From NCBI GenBank assembly GCA_030647435.1, contig JAUSJX010000090.1:1-41110 (forward strand): a DNA stretch of 41,110 bases, given 5' to 3'. This DNA is from Candidatus Rokuibacteriota bacterium (GTDB taxonomy: Bacteria > Methylomirabilota > Methylomirabilia > Rokubacteriales > CSP1-6). A program made the position numbers and the translations under genes. Of the stretch, positions 2,582-25,997 are shown piece by piece; position 1 is the stretch's first letter; the number at the start of each line of letters is the position of its first letter. Under the pieces are notes generated by a model. It did not search any database. It was not told where the DNA came from and saw only the letters and a program-made list of their open reading frames with translations.

Positions 2582-4189
2582 TCACTTCGCCACTTCCACC
2601 GCGCGCGTCTCGCGGATGACGATGACCTTGATGTGGCCGGGGTACTGCATCTCGGCCTCGATGCGCTTGGAGATGTCCTTGGCCAGCTGGTGGGCGTCGA
2701 GGTCGGAGATCTGTTCGGACTTGGTCATGACGCGGAGCTCGCGCCCGGCCTGGATCGCGTAGCACATCTCCACGCCCTTGTAGGACATGGCGATCTCCTC
2801 AAGCTTGGCCAGGCGCTTGATGTAGCTCTCGAGGACGTCACGGCGCGCGCCGGGCCGGGCCGCGGAGATGCCGTCGGCCGCCTCGGTCAGCACCGCCTCG
2901 ATGGTCTCGGGCTCGACGTTCTCGTGGCCGCAGAGCGCGGCGTTGATGATCTGCGGCGACTCGCCGTACTTGGTCAGCACCTGCAGGCTGAGCTCCGGGT
3001 GGCTGCCCTCCTGCTCGTGCGTGAGCGCCTTGCCGATGTCGTGGAGCAGCCCCATGCGCTTGGCCAGCTTGACGTCGGCCTTGATCTCGGCCGCCATCAT
3101 GCCCGCGAGCCAGGCGACTTCTTTCGAGTGCTGGAGGCAGTTCTGCCCGTAGGAGGTCCGGTACTTCATGCGCCCCACGAGCTTGACGAGCTCGGGGTGC
3201 AGGCCGTGGACGCCCACCTCGAAGCAGGCCTTCTCGCCCTCTTCCTTGAGCTGCTCCTCCATCTCCTTCTTGACCTTCTCGACGACCTCCTCGATGCGCG
3301 CTGGATGAATCCGCCCGTCGGCGATCAGCTTCTGGAGCGCCAGCTTCGCGATCTCCCGGCGATACGGGTCGTAGGCGGAGATGAGGACGGCCTCAGGCGT
3401 GTCGTCGACGATCAGGTCCACGCCCGTGTGCAGCTCGAGCGCGCGAATGTTTCGCCCCTCGCGGCCGATGATGCGCCCCTTCATGTCGTCCGACGGCAGG
3501 TTCACGATGGACACCGAGGTCTCGACCGTGTAGTCGGGCGCCAGCCGCTGGATCGTCGTGGCCAGGACTTCCCTCGCCTTGACCTGGGCGGTCTCCTTCG
3601 CCTCTTCCTCGAGCCGCATGCCGAGGAGCTGGGCCTCGCGGCGGCACTCGACCTCGACCTGGGCCATGAGCTGCCGCTTGGCCTCTTCCGCGGTGAGACC
3701 GGCGATGCCCTCGAGCTTCCTCCGCTGGTCATCGAGCGCGGAATTCAGCTGCGCCTCTTTCGTGGCAATGCCCTTGTCCCTTTCGCCCAGCGCGCGATCG
3801 CGGGACTGCATCTCGCTCTCGCGCCGGCCGAGCTGGTCGAGCTGACGGGCCAGCTGCTCTTCCTGCTGGACCACGCGGCGCTCGACCTCCTGGATCTCTT
3901 TCTGGCGCGCGCGCGTCTCCTGCTCGAGCTCGCTACGCGCCTTGAGCGCCGTCTCCTTGGCCTCGAGCTCGACGGCGCGGATGCGGGCCTCGCCCTCGCG
4001 GAACTTGACTTCGGCCTCCGCGCGCGCCTGCTCCACGGCGCGCTGGGCGTCGTCGAGGATGCGCTTGGCGCGAGTCTCGGCGTCGCCGAGGGTACGGGCG
4101 ATGGCGAGCTTGTGCGCCATGTAGCCGACGAAGAGTGCCAGGAGGGCGACGAGCGGAACCAGGACGATCAGAACAAGCTTGACGTCCAT
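2582..4189 (-). CDS. rny: Ribonuclease Y
   Basis: Membrane-anchored endoribonuclease that starts mRNA decay. Domain order is as expected: an N-terminal membrane helix (residues about 3-24), a long charged coiled coil to about 200, a KH domain with [17 protein letters not shown], and an HD domain with LLHDIGKAL metal ligands. The length of 535 residues is normal. The ATG at 4189 has GGAG six bases upstream; an in-frame TTG four codons earlier overlaps this ribosome-binding site and is less likely. It is followed by ymdB, its usual partner, and preceded by 6S RNA, a dense cluster of RNA-metabolism functions. Confidence 0.96.
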
Positions 4190-4201
4190 TGCTATCTCCA
4201 A

Positions 4202-4217
4202 CCGGGGACAGCCCCGG
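4202..4217 (-). promoter_or_regulatory. Short GC hairpin directly upstream of the rny ribosome-binding site
   Basis: A CCGGGG-CTGT-CCCCGG stem-loop ends two bases before the rny GGAG. There is no U-run, so it is not a clear terminator of the 6S transcript. It could influence rny translation or mRNA stability. The assignment is structural only. Confidence 0.4.
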
Positions 4218-4303
4218 ATTTAATAAGGACGATCAGGACCTTCGCGACAGCGAAAAATCATCGGAAGTATAAGCTCTTTGCGGAAGGAAAGTCAACGAAG
4301 GAG

Positions 4304-4488
4304 GCGCCCCGCCTCTGCCGTGTGCCGACGGTGTTTCGAACCTGGCAAGCCAGGTGGGCGCCAAAATGGAGGGCTTCAGGCTTCCCCTCGTGTGAGGGGC
4401 ATGCGCACCACCCTCTTGAGCGGCGTCCTCATGTGTATCGAGGTTGAAACTCCCCCCCGACATCACAAACAGCGCAGGGCTTCCCCTG
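4304..4488 (-). ncRNA. ssrS: 6S RNA
   Basis: This non-coding stretch directly follows zapA, the classical position of 6S RNA, the regulator that sequesters sigma-70 RNA polymerase. On the minus strand it shows the E. coli-like central pattern: a GGUGCGCAUGCCCC segment (compare GGUGAGCAUGCUC), then a short arm and GGGGAAGCCUGAAG (compare CCGAGAAGCCUUAA). Further down CACCUGGCUUGCCAGGUUC corresponds to CACCUUGAACCAAGGGUUC. The GCATGC centre is at 4399-4404. Ends are estimated from the E. coli length (184 nt) and may be off by 10-15 bases. The 3' flank contains a GAGGC-GGGGC-GCCTC hairpin that could be the terminal stem or terminator. Confidence 0.82.
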
Positions 4489-4523
4489 TGTACCCCCCTT
4501 GCCTCAGGCAAGTCAAGCGATAC

Positions 4524-4826
4524 CTACCGTTGGCCCTTGGCGGGGACGATCGCCTCCAGCAGGTCCACCATCGCGCCGATGCGCTTGGGCAGGTCGCCCT
4601 CGAACGTGGACAGCTCCTCGCGGGCACGGAACAGCTCGTCGGCGATATACAGGCCCGCCAGCGCCAGCGCCTTGACCGGGTCCTGGCCACGCATCTGTCC
4701 TTCCACGCTCTTGACGCGTTTCTCGACGTAGGCCGCAAGGTCGCGGACGTACTTCGGATCGGCCTCGCTCCTGATCGTGTACTTCTGCCCGAGGATCTCG
4801 ACCTCGACCCGCTGCATCTCGCTCAT
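4524..4826 (-). CDS. zapA: Cell-division protein ZapA
   Basis: A 100-residue ZapA-family protein that bundles FtsZ filaments and stabilises the Z-ring. It has the N-terminal VEVEILGQKYTIRSEAD strand pair, the D(P)KYVRDLAAYVEKRV helix, and the VKALALAGLYIADEL region typical of the family, followed by a short coiled coil. Its ATG overlaps the stop of the upstream coiled-coil gene (ATGA). The 6S RNA gene follows, an arrangement also known from proteobacteria. Confidence 0.93.
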   Translation of the reverse strand: MSEMQRVEVEILGQKYTIRSEADPKYVRDLAAYVEKRVKSVEGQMRGQDPVKALALAGLYIADELFRAREELSTFEGDLPKRIGAMVDLLEAIVPAKGQR

Positions 4827-20489: not shown

Positions 20490-20968
20490 CGGGCCTCCGG
20501 CACGTCGCGCATGAGGGTCGCGGTGAAGACGTCCGGGCCGCGCGTGACGCGCATGCGGAATTCCCAGAGACCCGGCCGCTCGAGCGGCATCGCCGCCACG
20601 TAGCCCAGACCCCGAGGCTCGAGGACCGCCGTCAGCACCCGGCTCGCTCGCGCGTTGTGCAGCGCCTCGATCGCGATGCGCGCGCCCGGGAGCGGCGCGC
20701 CCGCGCCATCGGTGAGGCGCGCGGCCACCGTCATCCCGCCGCGCTCTCCTGTCGGCTCGACACTGAGCCCGAGCGACCAGCCGAGCGCCTCGTTGCGCGC
20801 CTGCTGGGCCATGGTCTCGTCCCAGGCGAGCGCCTTCGCGTAGTAGTTGGGCTCGACCGCGAAGGAGGCGTCGCGCGAGGTGATGACGACAAGCGCGATG
20901 TTGGCTCCCGCGGAGCCGACGAGGAGCGCCGCCAGGCCCACCGGCCAGTACCAGCCGCGGCTCCTCAC
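20486..20968 (-). CDS. ccoH: cbb3 oxidase assembly protein CcoH (FixH family)
   Basis: 160 residues: one N-terminal membrane helix (about 6-30) and a periplasmic domain. It has the family's NYYAKALAWDETMAQQARNEALGW segment, PLPGARIAIEALHNARAS and a C-terminal PGLWEFRMRV strand. FixH/CcoH is a stable assembly factor of the oxidase. The GTG at 20968 overlaps the ccoG stop (GTGA), and the end overlaps the TauE-like gene. The open frame continues far upstream antiphase to ccoG, but that portion is a shadow. Confidence 0.9.
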   Translation of the reverse strand: MRSRGWYWPVGLAALLVGSAGANIALVVITSRDASFAVEPNYYAKALAWDETMAQQARNEALGWSLGLSVEPTGERGGMTVAARLTDGAGAPLPGARIAIEALHNARASRVLTAVLEPRGLGYVAAMPLERPGLWEFRMRVTRGPDVFTATLMRDVPEAR

Positions 20969-22386
20969 GGCCGCGTCTCCTCGGGTCCGAGCAGGCGGTA
21001 CGGCACAGAGGCGGCAAAGCCGGCGCCGTCCCCGACCCGGAAGCGGATCTCGCGCGCGCCGCCGTGGAACGCCGCGCGCGGCGCGGTCACGAAGACCGTC
21101 GCCGTGGCCGCGTGCCCGGCCGCAACGGCGAGCGGGTTGTCGGGCGCGATGAAGTGGAGACCCTCGCCGTCGGCGAGCTCGATCAGGTAGCGGCGATCGC
21201 CGTCGGCGCGGTTGACGATCTTGACCCGGATCTGGTTCGACACGTCGCCCGACGGCAGGAGCGTGAACGGGCTGCCGAGCCCGCGCAGGACCGTCACGTC
21301 GGCGCTCGCCCGGTGCGCGAGCGCCCAGCCGAGCATCCCCCAGACCGCGATCAATAAGATCGGGTAGAGGACGACGCGCGGCCGGAGGATGCGCCGCGGC
21401 GCCCCGCCCAGCTCGTCGCTCGAGCTGTAGCGGATCAGCCCGCGCGGCCGGCCGATCCGCTCCATGATCGAGTCGCACGCGTCCATGCACTGCGTGCAGT
21501 GGATGCACTCCATCTGCAACCCGTCGCGGATGTCGATGCCCGTCGGGCACGTGACCACGCACGCGCCGCAGTCGATGCAGTCGCCCAAGGCCAGCGGCGG
21601 AGCGCCGGGGCCGTTGCCCGCACGGCGCGCGAGGCGCCCGCGCGGCTCGCCGCGGCGGAAGTCGTAGCCGACGATGAGCGAGCGCCGGTCGAGCAATGCT
21701 GACTGGAAGCGCCCGTACGGGCACGCCACGACGCAGACCTGCTCGCGGAACCAGCCGAAGTCGAGGAACATCAGCGCGGTGGTGCCCGCCATCACGAGGA
21801 AGGCGGCCGGGTGCTCGAAGGGCGAGCGCGTGATCCAGTGACGGAGCGCCTCGACGCCCACGAAGTACGCGAGGAAGGTATGGGCGAGGAACATGCTGAG
21901 GGCGCCGAAGACCGCGTACTTGACGAGTCGCCGCGGCGCGAGCCGCCGGCCGTCGAGGTCGCGCTGCGCGCGCGGGCCGCCCTCGATGAGCCGCTCGATG
22001 GGGCGGTAGAGAAACTCCATGTAGACCGTTTGGGGACAGGCCCAGCCGCACCAGACGCGGCCGTAGATCGCCGTCAGGAGGAAGATGCCGATGAAGAGGC
22101 CCACGAGGAGGAGCATCAGCAGCATCGTGTCCGTCGGCAGGAACGTGGCCCCGAAGAGGATGAAGCGCCGATTGACGACGTCGAGCAGGATGACGGGCTT
22201 GCCGCCCATCCTGAGATACGGCAGGACGGTGAAGAGCCCGATGAGCGCCCAAGCGAGCGCCCGCCGGCGCCGAAGGAAACGCCCCTCGAAGAGCTTGGGG
22301 CGCATCCAGCGTCGCGTGCCGTCCAGGTTGAGCGTGGGAAGGACGCGCTCCTTGGTCGCTGAGGGCAGCGGTGGCGGCGCGGGCAT
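20965..22386 (-). CDS. ccoG: Iron-sulfur membrane protein CcoG (RdxA/FixG)
   Basis: 473 residues with the CcoG layout: membrane helices in the first half including GRVWCGWACPQTVYMEF, the VCVVACPYGRFQ motif, then two ferredoxin 4Fe-4S motifs (CIDCGACVVTCPTG and CIHCTQCMDACDS) and a C-terminal Ig-like domain. CcoG reduces Cu(II) for the cbb3 assembly pathway. I favour ATG at 22386 after GAGAGGG; a TTG four codons earlier overlaps the ccoP stop (TTGA) and is possible. Order and orientation match cco maturation operons. Confidence 0.93.
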   Translation of the reverse strand: MPAPPPLPSATKERVLPTLNLDGTRRWMRPKLFEGRFLRRRRALAWALIGLFTVLPYLRMGGKPVILLDVVNRRFILFGATFLPTDTMLLMLLLVGLFIGIFLLTAIYGRVWCGWACPQTVYMEFLYRPIERLIEGGPRAQRDLDGRRLAPRRLVKYAVFGALSMFLAHTFLAYFVGVEALRHWITRSPFEHPAAFLVMAGTTALMFLDFGWFREQVCVVACPYGRFQSALLDRRSLIVGYDFRRGEPRGRLARRAGNGPGAPPLALGDCIDCGACVVTCPTGIDIRDGLQMECIHCTQCMDACDSIMERIGRPRGLIRYSSSDELGGAPRRILRPRVVLYPILLIAVWGMLGWALAHRASADVTVLRGLGSPFTLLPSGDVSNQIRVKIVNRADGDRRYLIELADGEGLHFIAPDNPLAVAAGHAATATVFVTAPRAAFHGGAREIRFRVGDGAGFAASVPYRLLGPEETRP

Positions 22387-22394
22387 CGTCCCTC

Positions 22395-22973
22395 TCAACG
22401 GGTCGGTGAGCCGTCCGCGGCGGCCTTCTGGCCCTCCGGCGGCTTGGGGTTGGGCGGATGCGTGCCCCGCAGCGTTCCAACGTAGGCGGCCATGGCGGCG
22501 ATTTCAGCGGGCGAGAGCTGGGTCTTCCAGGGCACCATGCCCTTCTCGGGCACACCCTCGCTGATCGTCTCGTAGAACTCGGTCAGCCGCCCGCCGTGCA
22601 GCCAGTATTCGTCCGTGAGGTTGGGCCCGACGATGCCCTGGCCGCGATCGCCATGGCACGGCGCGCACCGGGTGGCGAAGATCCCCTTCGCCTTGGCCAT
22701 CGCGGCCGCGTCCTTCTCGAGCGCCGCCAGCGAAGCGTCCGTGACCGCACTGGCCACCGCCTTGGGCTGCCGCTCGGCCGCCGCCCTCATCTCGGCCTCG
22801 TAGACGGCGACCACCGACGGCCCCGGCCCCAGCTGGTAGTAGGCCCAGTACCCGAGCGAGAACGCGATAGTCACCCAGAAGATCCACACCCACCAGCCGG
22901 GCAGCGGGTTGTCATACTCCTCGATGCCGTCCTGGGCGTGCGGCAGCAGCCGGTCGCGGTCGGCGTCACTCAT
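22395..22973 (-). CDS. ccoP: cbb3 oxidase subunit III CcoP, single-haem form
   Basis: 192 residues. The N terminus is classic CcoP (DGIEEYDNPLPGWWVWIFWVTIAFS) with one membrane helix, followed by a single cytochrome c domain: C103-A-P-C106-H107 and distal Met candidates in EKGMVPW. Normal CcoP is around 300 residues with two CxxCH domains; here there is only one, so electrons would reach CcoO with one haem fewer. The Pro-rich C terminus ends cleanly at a TGA and the downstream ccoG start touches it, so this is not an obvious truncation. It overlaps ccoQ by eight bases. Confidence 0.92.
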   Translation of the reverse strand: MSDADRDRLLPHAQDGIEEYDNPLPGWWVWIFWVTIAFSLGYWAYYQLGPGPSVVAVYEAEMRAAAERQPKAVASAVTDASLAALEKDAAAMAKAKGIFATRCAPCHGDRGQGIVGPNLTDEYWLHGGRLTEFYETISEGVPEKGMVPWKTQLSPAEIAAMAAYVGTLRGTHPPNPKPPEGQKAAADGSPTR

Positions 22974-23169
22974 GGGTCGCTCTCTCCCCTGTCAGCGGCG
23001 CGCTCGGCTCGTCCTCGAGGGGCAGAAAGCGGGCGCGCTCGAAGTGCTCCCGGTTGCGCCGGAGAAACGTGGTCACCGCGATCGCGAGGAAGGCGGCCCC
23101 GAACAGCACCAGGCCGGCCTCGGCGAAGATCTGCAGCCCGAAGCCGCTCATCACGTCGGTGAGGCTCAT
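22966..23169 (-). CDS. ccoQ: cbb3 oxidase subunit IV CcoQ
   Basis: 67 residues with one membrane helix (about 13-35) and the charged RRNREHFERARFLPLEDE segment, typical of CcoQ, which stabilises the oxidase. It lies between ccoNO and ccoP, 1 base after the former and overlapping the latter. Confidence 0.85.
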   Translation of the reverse strand: MSLTDVMSGFGLQIFAEAGLVLFGAAFLAIAVTTFLRRNREHFERARFLPLEDEPSAPLTGERATHE

Positions 23170-23170
23170 G

Positions 23171-25387
23171 TCACCGCCTCGGCTCCGGGTGGGGTTGGGG
23201 CTGCGGTAGGGCTTCGGCCCGGCGTCCGCTGGGGCCGGCCGCGGCCGGGCTCTTCTTGATATCGGTGCCGAGCCGCTGGAGGTACGCGATGAGCGCCACG
23301 AGCCGAGTCTCCTCGAGCCCCTTGGGCCCGCCCTGCGCGACGATCGCCTGCGCGATCTTCTTCCCCTGCGCCCGCGCGAGCTCCGGGGCGCCCTTGACCT
23401 GCTGGGGCGTGTACGGAACGCCGAGCGTCACCTGCGCCGCCACGCCGCGCTCGACGGCCGCGAAATCGAGCGGCCGCTTCGCCAGCCACGGGTATGGCGG
23501 CATGATGGACTGCGGCGTGGTCGAGCGCGGGTCCTCCATGTGGCGCACGTGCCAGAGGTTCGGGTACTTGCCGCCGATCCGCTGCAGGTCCGGGCCGATG
23601 CGGCGGGAGCCCCAGAGGAACGGATGGTCGTAGACGAACTCGCCCGGCTTGCTGTATTCCCCGTAGCGCACCGTCTCGGAGCGGATGGGCCGGATCATCT
23701 GCGAGTGGCAGTTGTTGCAGCCCTCCGAGATGTAGACATCGCGCCCGGCGAGCTCCAGCGGCGTGTAGGGCATGACCGCGGCGATCGTGGGCACGTTCGA
23801 GCGGATGAGGAACATGGGGATGATCTCGAAGAGCGAGGCGCTCACCACCGCGACGACGACCCAGATGGAAAAGGTCAGCGGCATGCCCTCCCAGCGCCGG
23901 TGCCACGCCGCGCGCTTGAAGCCGGCGGCCGTCACCTCGGCCCGGTACTCGCGGGTCAGCGCGGGCGCCTCGTGCACGGGCTCCGCATACGCCGCGGGCG
24001 CGCGCCGCCACGTCATCACCACGTTCCACGCGCAGAGCGCCATGCCGGCGATGTAGAGGCCGCCGCCCAGCACGCGCACCCAGTACATGGGCATGAGCCG
24101 TACGGTCGCCTCGATGAAGTCCGGGTACGCGAGCCGCCCGCTCTCGTCGAAGGCGCGGAACATGAGTCCCTGGGTCAGCCCGGCCGCGTAGATGGCCACG
24201 ATGTAGAGCAGGATGCCGATCGTGCCGATCCAGAAGTGCAGCTCGGCCAGCTTCTTGCTCCAGAGCTCCGTCTGGAAGAGGCGCGGCAGGAGCCAGTAGA
24301 TCATCCCGAAGATCATGAAGCCGACCCAGCCGAGCGTGCCCGCGTGGACGTGGGCGATGGTCCAATCCGTGTAGTGCGAGAGCGCGTTGACGCTCTTGAT
24401 CGACAGGAGCGGCCCCTCGAAGGTCGACATGCCGTAGAAGGTCACCGCCACCACGAAGAACTTGAGCACGGGATCGTCGGTCACCTTCGACCACGCGCCA
24501 CGGAGCGTCAGAAGCCCGTTGATCATCCCGCCCCAGGACGGCATCCACAGCATGACCGAGAAGAGCATGCCGAGCGTCGAGGCCCAGGCGGGCAGCGCCG
24601 TGTAGTGGAGGTGGTGCGGCCCCGCCCAGATGTAGATGAAGACCAGAGTCCAGAAGTGCAGGATCGACAGGCGGTAGGAGTACACCGGCCGTTCGGCCGC
24701 CTTGGGCAGGAAGTAGTACATCATGCCGAGGAACGGCGTGGTCAGGAAGAAGGCGACCGCGTTGTGGCCGTACCACCACTGCATGAAGGCGTCCTGCACC
24801 CCCGCGTAGATCGAGTAGCTCTTCATCGGCCCCGCCACGACCACGAGGTTGTTGAAGATGTGGAGCACGGCGATGGCCACCAGCGTGGCGATGTAGAACC
24901 AGAGCGCGACGTAGAGGTGCCGCTCGCGCCGGCGGGCCAGCGTGCCGAAGAAGTTCGCGGCGAAGACGACCCAGATGACGGCGATGGCGATGTCGATGGG
25001 CCACTCGAGCTCCGCGTACTCCTTCGACTGGCTGTAGCCGAGCGGCAGCGTCACGGCGGCGGCGACGATGATGGCCTGCCACCCCCAGAAGTGTAGCCGG
25101 CCCAGCGCGTCGCTCCACATGCGCGCCTTGAGGAGGCGCTGCGAGGAGTAGTAGACGCCCGCGAAGATCGCGTTGCCCGCGAAGGCGAAGATCACCGCGT
25201 TGGTGTGCAGCGGGCGCAGCCGGCCGAAGGAGAGCCACGACGTCTGGAAGTTGAGGACGGGCAGGACGAGCTGGAGCGCGATCAGCAGGCCCACGGCCAT
25301 GCCGACCAGGCCCCACAGCACGGTGACCAGCAGGAACATGCGGACGATCTGGTCGTCGTAGACGAACCGTTCGACGCGGTCGCTCAT
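23171..25387 (-). CDS. ccoNO: Fused cbb3 oxidase subunits I and II (CcoN-CcoO)
   Basis: 738 residues in one unbroken frame. Residues about 1-480 are CcoN: haem-copper oxidase core with WWYGHNAVAFFLT (Cu/haem ligand His), GPHHLHYTALP and TDWTIAHVHAGTLGWVGF. A linker with a new helix (LTFSIWVVVAVVSASLFEIIP) leads to CcoO, residues about 500-738: YISEGCNNCHSQMIRP with haem Cys557, Cys560 and His561, and GPDLQRIGGKYPNLWHVRHM. The complex reduces O2 with high affinity in the inner membrane and pumps protons. Most organisms encode these subunits separately; fusions are known in some lineages. I see no frameshift or residual start site at the junction. Confidence 0.96.
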   Translation of the reverse strand: MSDRVERFVYDDQIVRMFLLVTVLWGLVGMAVGLLIALQLVLPVLNFQTSWLSFGRLRPLHTNAVIFAFAGNAIFAGVYYSSQRLLKARMWSDALGRLHFWGWQAIIVAAAVTLPLGYSQSKEYAELEWPIDIAIAVIWVVFAANFFGTLARRRERHLYVALWFYIATLVAIAVLHIFNNLVVVAGPMKSYSIYAGVQDAFMQWWYGHNAVAFFLTTPFLGMMYYFLPKAAERPVYSYRLSILHFWTLVFIYIWAGPHHLHYTALPAWASTLGMLFSVMLWMPSWGGMINGLLTLRGAWSKVTDDPVLKFFVVAVTFYGMSTFEGPLLSIKSVNALSHYTDWTIAHVHAGTLGWVGFMIFGMIYWLLPRLFQTELWSKKLAELHFWIGTIGILLYIVAIYAAGLTQGLMFRAFDESGRLAYPDFIEATVRLMPMYWVRVLGGGLYIAGMALCAWNVVMTWRRAPAAYAEPVHEAPALTREYRAEVTAAGFKRAAWHRRWEGMPLTFSIWVVVAVVSASLFEIIPMFLIRSNVPTIAAVMPYTPLELAGRDVYISEGCNNCHSQMIRPIRSETVRYGEYSKPGEFVYDHPFLWGSRRIGPDLQRIGGKYPNLWHVRHMEDPRSTTPQSIMPPYPWLAKRPLDFAAVERGVAAQVTLGVPYTPQQVKGAPELARAQGKKIAQAIVAQGGPKGLEETRLVALIAYLQRLGTDIKKSPAAAGPSGRRAEALPQPQPHPEPRR

Positions 25388-25442: not shown

Positions 25443-25997
25443 TCACGGACCCCGGCGGTCGAGCCAAACGAGTGCCGCGCCGCACACGGCGACCAGGGGC
25501 ACGATGACGACCCAGTGGTTGACGCCGAGCAGGCCGGGCAGCGTCAGCTTTCCAAAGTCTCCGACTCGCAGCAGCGTGTCCTTGATGAACGGATAGACCT
25601 CCGAGTAGACGCCCGCTCCCAGCAGGATTCCCAGCACTCCCCTCAGCAGCCCGTCCATGCGGCCTTCACCGAAGGCCCCGGCGCAGGTGCCGGGTCAGAA
25701 TCCGAGGAGCAGCATGCCCGCGCCGAAGACGAGCCCGCCCAGGACGTTGGCGGCGAGGACCGTCGGCTTGATGTGAAGGTTGACGAGACCGAGCGAGTAG
25801 AGGGCGTACACGGCCACCATGCCGGAGAGGATGCCGCCCATCATCACCTTGAGCATGGTCAGGTCGGTCAGGCGGAAGAAGGACACGATCTTGTCGTAGC
25901 GGGTCATCTGCCCCTTCTGGAGGACGAAGCCGAAGGCGATGCCCGTCGCGAGCCCGAGCAGGAGCCTCGCAGCGCCCGTCAGATCAAGCGGCCCCAT
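25443..25997 (-). CDS. YeeE/YedE-type (DUF6691) membrane protein with in-frame TGA, candidate selenoprotein
   Basis: Read with TGA as selenocysteine this is a 184-residue membrane protein, C-terminal half of a split YeeE/YedE transporter. The first 100 codons end ...AGMLLLGF, then TGA at 25695-25697, then PGTCAGAFGEGRMDG in the same frame, continuing through GVYSEVYPFIKDTL and GKLTLPGLLGVNHWV. In homologues the position of the TGA is the conserved Cys of a G(Y/F)CPGT motif. A hairpin with a GGU loop follows at the right distance for a bacterial SECIS. If the TGA is a true stop or sequencing error, the gene is two fragments (25695-25997 and about 25443-25658). YeeE relatives import thiosulfate; an analogous sulfur or selenium substrate is inference. 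Confidence 0.75.
25661..25697 (-). promoter_or_regulatory. Candidate SECIS element and UGA codon
   Basis: UGA at 25695-25697 is followed by a CCCGGC-ACCTGC-GCCGGG hairpin (25677-25694) and then GGCCTTC-GGT-GAAGGCC (25661-25677, sharing one G). The second has a 7-bp stem and a GGU apical loop whose first G lies 24 bases after the UGA. Bacterial SECIS elements have an apical-loop G within about 16-37 bases of the UGA; the E. coli fdhF loop also contains GGU. Confidence 0.6.

Follow-up and report, generated by a model that had tools for sequence, protein, structure and literature searches.

A predicted selenocysteine in one half of a split YeeE/YedE-type transporter from Candidatus Rokuibacteriota

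Here, we describe a minus-strand gene of Candidatus Rokuibacteriota (25443..25997) whose in-frame UGA (25697-25695) is, by comparative evidence, almost certainly decoded as selenocysteine (Sec). The gene lies in the window (i.e., the whole 41,110-nucleotide stretch, positions 1 to 41,110 of contig JAUSJX010000090.1 of assembly GCA_030647435.1) and is predicted to encode a PmpB-like product, the N-terminal half of a YeeE/YedE transporter that is split over two genes. The full explanation, in which Sec decoding is combined with a sulfur-transporter half that carries the Sec within a cysteine relay, is likely, and the part of it that is based on sequence comprises homology, a column of alternating Cys and Sec codons, the decoding machinery and selection after the UGA.

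Results

The first-pass annotation had recognized half of a YeeE/YedE transporter at 25443-25997, with the frame open and family sequence present on both sides of a TGA. Its coordinates and assignment stand, and the strand, which it left unstated, is the minus strand. Codon 1 lies at 25997, the UGA is codon 101 and the gene's own stop is the TGA at 25445-25443. With the UGA read as Sec, the product is MGPLDLTGAARLLLG...GMLLLGF-U-PGTCAGAFGEGRMDGLL...WLDRRGP (184 residues), with the motif LLGF-U-PGTC around the UGA. This read-through protein scores 53.1 bits against PF04143 (Sulf_transp, YeeE/YedE), above the gathering cut-off of 27, and family sequence extends both 5' and 3' of the UGA. The ATG-initiated ORF of 71 amino acids 3' of the UGA (25443..25658, minus strand) is what a gene caller would report; its family sequence and the selection on the 12 codons that precede it indicate that it is just the tail of the predicted Sec protein. 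A search of plasmids for homologues gave two matches, both distant.

Directly upstream lies a partner gene (26520 to 25984, minus strand) that overlaps the Sec gene by 14 nt. Its product scores 82.1 bits against PF04143 (gathering cut-off 27) over the C-terminal half of the model. Because each product matches a part of PF04143, we read the two overlapping genes as together encoding one YeeE/YedE-type protein in two halves. The same arrangement is known from PmpB/PmpA, which are encoded by adjacent N-half and C-half genes with one conserved Cys position each (Cys91 and Cys293) (PMC11582611). The Sec gene shares the PmpB-type traits, namely an N-terminal half, the Cys91 position (as Sec) and a PmpA-type gene alongside. 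It differs in that the Cys91 site is Cys in PmpB/PmpA and predicted Sec in the window half; PmpB and PmpA are also about 130 residues long, and the window halves have 184 and 178. PmpB has four transmembrane helices, while about five long helices are modeled for the 184-residue half, and because of this length and helix count we call it no more than PmpB-like.

Residue 101 was aligned by phmmer with Cys91 of the Spirochaeta thermophila transporter StYeeE (YeeE/TsuA; 6LEO, 6LEP, 8K1R), with which the window protein shares its fold; 6LEP is the inactive C91A mutant. StYeeE is a single chain with three conserved Cys, whereas the window protein is a half in which the Cys22 position is Thr32 and the Cys91 position is Sec. 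An AlphaFold model of the Sec half (mean pLDDT 75) found its best structural match in residues 1-186 of StYeeE, with a Z of 9.4-10.4 over 163-171 residues, well above that of every other chain. Foldseek alone gave E 0.069 and probability 1.00 against 6LEP, and the fold claim is carried by a second look with VIA-align together with the sequence match. In StYeeE, Cys91 and Cys293 are reported to lie about 8-9 Å apart. Cys91 and Cys293 are reported to be indispensable in YeeE, PmpB/PmpA have been proposed to form a heterodimer (PMC11582611), and published work describes a line of cysteines that thiosulfate encounters one after another (PMC11073785; PMC11582611). A relay of thiosulfate through Cys, which the first-pass annotation had mentioned for characterized YeeE proteins, is described in PMC11073785. 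TsoY, which the first-pass annotation had named with the remark that it could not tell whether it is this family, is not this protein: NF047643 was not matched at E 0.01 in NCBIfam 20.0. TsoY is likewise a predicted bacterial selenoprotein, with the motif UxxV (PMC13188914).

We consider it reasonably probable that the Sec-gene product is half of a transporter for a sulfur compound. The main competing view accepts the selenoprotein and holds that the pair moves a selenium compound, or that it senses sulfur or redox state for nearby stress and oxidase genes. It draws on YedE relatives that are predicted selenium transporters (PMC5322559, PMC9312934), on SoxT1B, a YeeE relative that works in signaling (PMC11582611), and on the surroundings of the window pair, namely universal stress proteins on its upstream side and, directly downstream on the same strand, a cbb3 oxidase (fused CcoNO, CcoP and CcoG; 20965-25387, minus strand). 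These neighbors, being stress proteins and an oxidase, do not name the substrate. Several observations count against this view. The selenium-transporter YedE models TIGR04112 and NF033796 gave 27.8 and 27.9 bits against cut-offs of 200 and 350, and the best model was that of the thiosulfate transporter TsuA, although its 43 bits also fall below a cut-off of 400. The Sec half-gene is not adjacent to selD. Furthermore, the neighbors of related loci suggest sulfur and thiol chemistry, again with no substrate named: TauE/SafE relatives lie near several homologous loci, and in relative G077 (locus L109) the order is DUF302, OsmC-like, protein disulfide oxidoreductase (PDO) with UGA, UGA partner and UGA half (i.e., three successive UGA-containing genes). 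That PDO, a glutaredoxin-like protein with its UGA in the motif UPYC, lies directly before the UGA transporter pair (4085-4738, minus strand), and another UGA-containing PDO (2979-3527) lies near a UGA half from a different Sec clade (L021). On balance, we regard selenium transport or sensing as rather unlikely, though more probable than the other rival readings considered here. Elsewhere in the window is a 6S RNA (4302-4483, minus strand; RF00013, 72 bits).

For the codon-101 column, homologues were gathered by searches that read through stops, and in 110 non-duplicate loci the column held TGA (30), TGC (58) or TGT (22), with no TAA, TAG or any other residue. The first-pass annotation had placed the TGA at a conserved Cys and had named Cys/Sec alternation at this column as support, and another stop codon or decay at the site as refutation. 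With 30 TGA against 80 Cys codons and the alignment to Cys91 of StYeeE, the placement is confirmed and the alternation is what we found. In a maximum-likelihood tree with Sec coded as missing, parsimony counted at least nine changes between Sec and Cys, at least six of which are forced by well-supported branches. The clade of the window gene (support 99) comprises five Sec loci, including the window, and one Cys locus. The other Sec loci (L080, L081, L112 and L114) encode proteins 72-74% identical to the window protein; the Cys locus (L115) has TGT at the column and is 69% identical. A 69%-identical relative comes from a Methylomirabilota MAG of the same class as the window. Fused full-length YeeE genes from the window's class and order (L091-L101, L043) also carry UGA at a Cys91-like column, in the motifs GGU[A/G]SGS and GGUTTG, with close Cys relatives intermixed.

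Within the window's clade, pN/pS was 0.15-0.51 after the UGA and 0.09-0.34 before it, and differences in the 12 codons that separate the UGA from the next ATG are mostly at third positions. With the UGA as a stop, these 12 codons would not be translated; the pattern indicates that codons 3' of the UGA are under protein-level selection. An ordinary stop, either in a decaying pseudogene or created by a sequencing error and in both cases followed by an ATG ORF of no significance, would agree with a standard gene caller's cutting the gene at the UGA and with the loss of frame near the C-terminus in one relative (L112/L048). It is at odds with 30 of 110 loci that carry TGA and never TAA or TAG, with selection on both sides of the UGA and with the recurrent Sec/Cys changes on the tree, which together make it very improbable; at the family level, the relatives rule out a pseudogene or sequencing error. 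In L112/L048 itself, the frame is lost in the last ~37 codons, after residue 147 (LLKLGPD, then stops), which leaves a Sec-half copy that lacks the C-terminal helix.

The genome is also equipped to insert Sec. In this assembly (5.79 Mb, 98.5% complete), selB (380 bits) adjoins selA (584 bits) on contig 56, a tRNA-Sec called by both Rfam and ARAGORN lies ~1.4 kb upstream of selA, and selD (343 bits) is found on a separate contig, so that a search for selA, selB, selC and selD, as the first-pass annotation had proposed, recovered all four. Because selD holds one in-frame TGA, its product is probably itself a selenoprotein. The presence of selB is weak support since most genomes of the order carry it (54 of 60 above cut-off); among UGA-form relatives, no full selB is present in G041 (77% complete), while G095 shows a selB fragment only. 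Methylomirabilota have been noted for large selenoproteomes, with 63 predicted selenoproteins in one MAG (PMC13188914). UGA is the ordinary stop of the Sec half-gene and of most neighbors checked in the window and is therefore not simply reassigned, which rules out genome-wide reassignment. That the UGA is instead read as Trp, Cys or another amino acid by a reassigned or special tRNA is highly unlikely: Cys is the sole replacement of UGA in relatives, so its insertion would fit the protein, but UGA still terminates the Sec gene and most neighbors, a canonical tRNA-Sec is present with selA, selB and selD, and hairpins accompany the UGA forms.

The first-pass annotation had described a 7-bp hairpin whose GGU loop follows the UGA at a distance of 24 nt, within the range of bacterial SECIS elements. 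This SECIS-like hairpin (GGCCUUC-GGU-GAAGGCC, 25661..25677, minus strand; stem from 17 nt after the UGA) is within all published limits, which are a loop of 3-9 nt, a stem of 4-16 bp, a G among the first two loop nucleotides, a distance of 16-37 nt between UGA and loop and an energy of at most -7.5 kcal/mol (PMC13188914); the hairpin alone has -10.0 kcal/mol. Its folding is less clear-cut. Folded alone, it predominates up to +41/+48 nt (P 0.82-1.0), but longer pairings displace it once 60 nt are folded (hairpin P 0.13). Against synonymous-codon shuffles it is unremarkable in this single sequence (p about 0.1). An Rfam scan around the UGA gave just two chance snoRNA matches, on the opposite strand.

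Across the family, SECIS-type hairpins are far stronger in Sec than in Cys loci, with a mean best hairpin of -9.3 against -5.2 kcal/mol (Mann-Whitney p about 2e-6, an optimistically small value because the loci are related and not independent). GGU/GGC-type hairpins recur in Sec forms, and the first-pass annotation had named a conserved GGU hairpin in such forms as support: L112 and L114 have a 9-bp version with loop GGC or GGU, a T-A to C-G change preserves the stem in L080, and in L081 the register of the pairing is shifted and the loop is CGGGGA. L115, the Cys sister, and L112 encode 18 identical residues (PGTCAAAFGEGRLDGLFR), and through synonymous changes their best hairpins are -4.2 and -14.4 kcal/mol, respectively, with a 5-bp hairpin core still formed in L115. 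In other Sec clades the hairpins differ in sequence, and their loops are again G-rich: GGCCGU-GGGU-GCGGCC lies at +17 in one form, and CUUACCG-GUC-CGGUGAG lies at +19/20 in another. One TGC member, L116 (site 1728, minus strand), retains the hairpin GGCCGT-GGGC-GCGGCC of its UGA neighbors L117 and L088, possibly as a result of a recent change from Sec to Cys.

Finally, we found that the partner half can carry a UGA of its own in close relatives, a new observation that the first-pass annotation had missed and that gives predicted Sec/Sec transporters. In the window, the partner position is Cys135 (TGC at 26118-26116, motif GCTSGHG), which is invariant in the alignment and, through the PmpA mapping of PMC11582611, is the predicted counterpart of Cys293 of StYeeE. 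The corresponding codon is TGA in L080, L081, L112, L114 and L062. Because four of the five nearest relatives have UGA there, Sec was likely lost from the partner half in the window's lineage. TGA partners with the motif GUPSGHG also occur beside Cys N-halves (L050, L051, L053-L056, L152 and L154-L158), including six loci (L152, L154-L158) in an order that includes a Geobacteraceae genome. Across loci the partner motif is GU[T/P]SGHG, and Cys/Cys, Cys/Sec, Sec/Cys and Sec/Sec pairs all exist. Partner UGA loci have stronger SECIS-like hairpins, and none is found at the TGC site of the window. In the L115 partner, TGA occupies codon 11 (WP*WQ), a Trp position in relatives, which may reflect an error, a later start or decay.

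Discussion

From these data, we infer Sec insertion in the cell, a heterodimer, its substrate and its chemistry. SelA, SelB, SelC and SelD would decode the UGA at codon 101 as Sec, aided by the hairpin just 3' of it, and the resulting N-terminal half would pair with the product of the overlapping partner gene. Sec101 would replace the central member of the cysteine line across the membrane, which is Cys91 in StYeeE, and Cys135 of the partner would take the role of Cys293. The sulfur compound carried would probably be thiosulfate or a different donor of sulfane sulfur, and the lower pKa and better nucleophilicity of selenium could ease contact, or a transient bond, with the sulfane sulfur; thiosulfate as the substrate and the exact part played by selenium are likewise inferred. 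A bolder proposal, which we hold to be doubtful, is a membrane sulfur conduit with two Sec, one per half, of which the window pair keeps one with Cys in the partner; it would move sulfane sulfur by way of transient Se-S bonds and be restored by thiol exchange, and would not solely allow thiosulfate to slip by through hydrogen bonds. This proposal draws on a clade-specific Cys four residues past the Sec (U-PGT-C) and on the UGA-containing PDO that adjoins the transporter pair in one relative.

A predicted Sec YeeE/YedE family has already been published, with the motif GUxSG and the record WP_012471001.1 (PMC13188914, PMC9312934); the main text of the primary papers cited for that record (PMC2398784, PMC5029168) does not name YeeE. 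Like that family, the window protein belongs to PF04143 and has one predicted Sec at a conserved Cys. It is set apart by its own motif, GFUPGT, and the GUxSG motif fits instead the partner-half UGA site of the Geobacter-related order (GUPSGHG) or the fused GGU[A/G]SG forms of the window's class. Because the rule in the review separates subfamilies by Sec position or motif, the FUPGT Sec half is a separate subfamily of an already known kind of Sec YeeE/YedE protein. In the open-access literature searched, Sec at FUPGT, a split Sec transporter and a Sec/Sec pair were undescribed, an absence that is no proof of novelty.

Few membrane transporters have Sec in their path, and the table of the cited selenoprotein review lists no transporter among experimentally verified selenoproteins. 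Gene callers split such genes at the UGA, and Sec transporters are therefore probably under-counted. The family offers a natural experiment, with two functionally mapped Cys, solved structures and four Cys/Sec combinations in otherwise similar proteins, and these combinations make the contribution of selenium to a sulfur relay directly testable.
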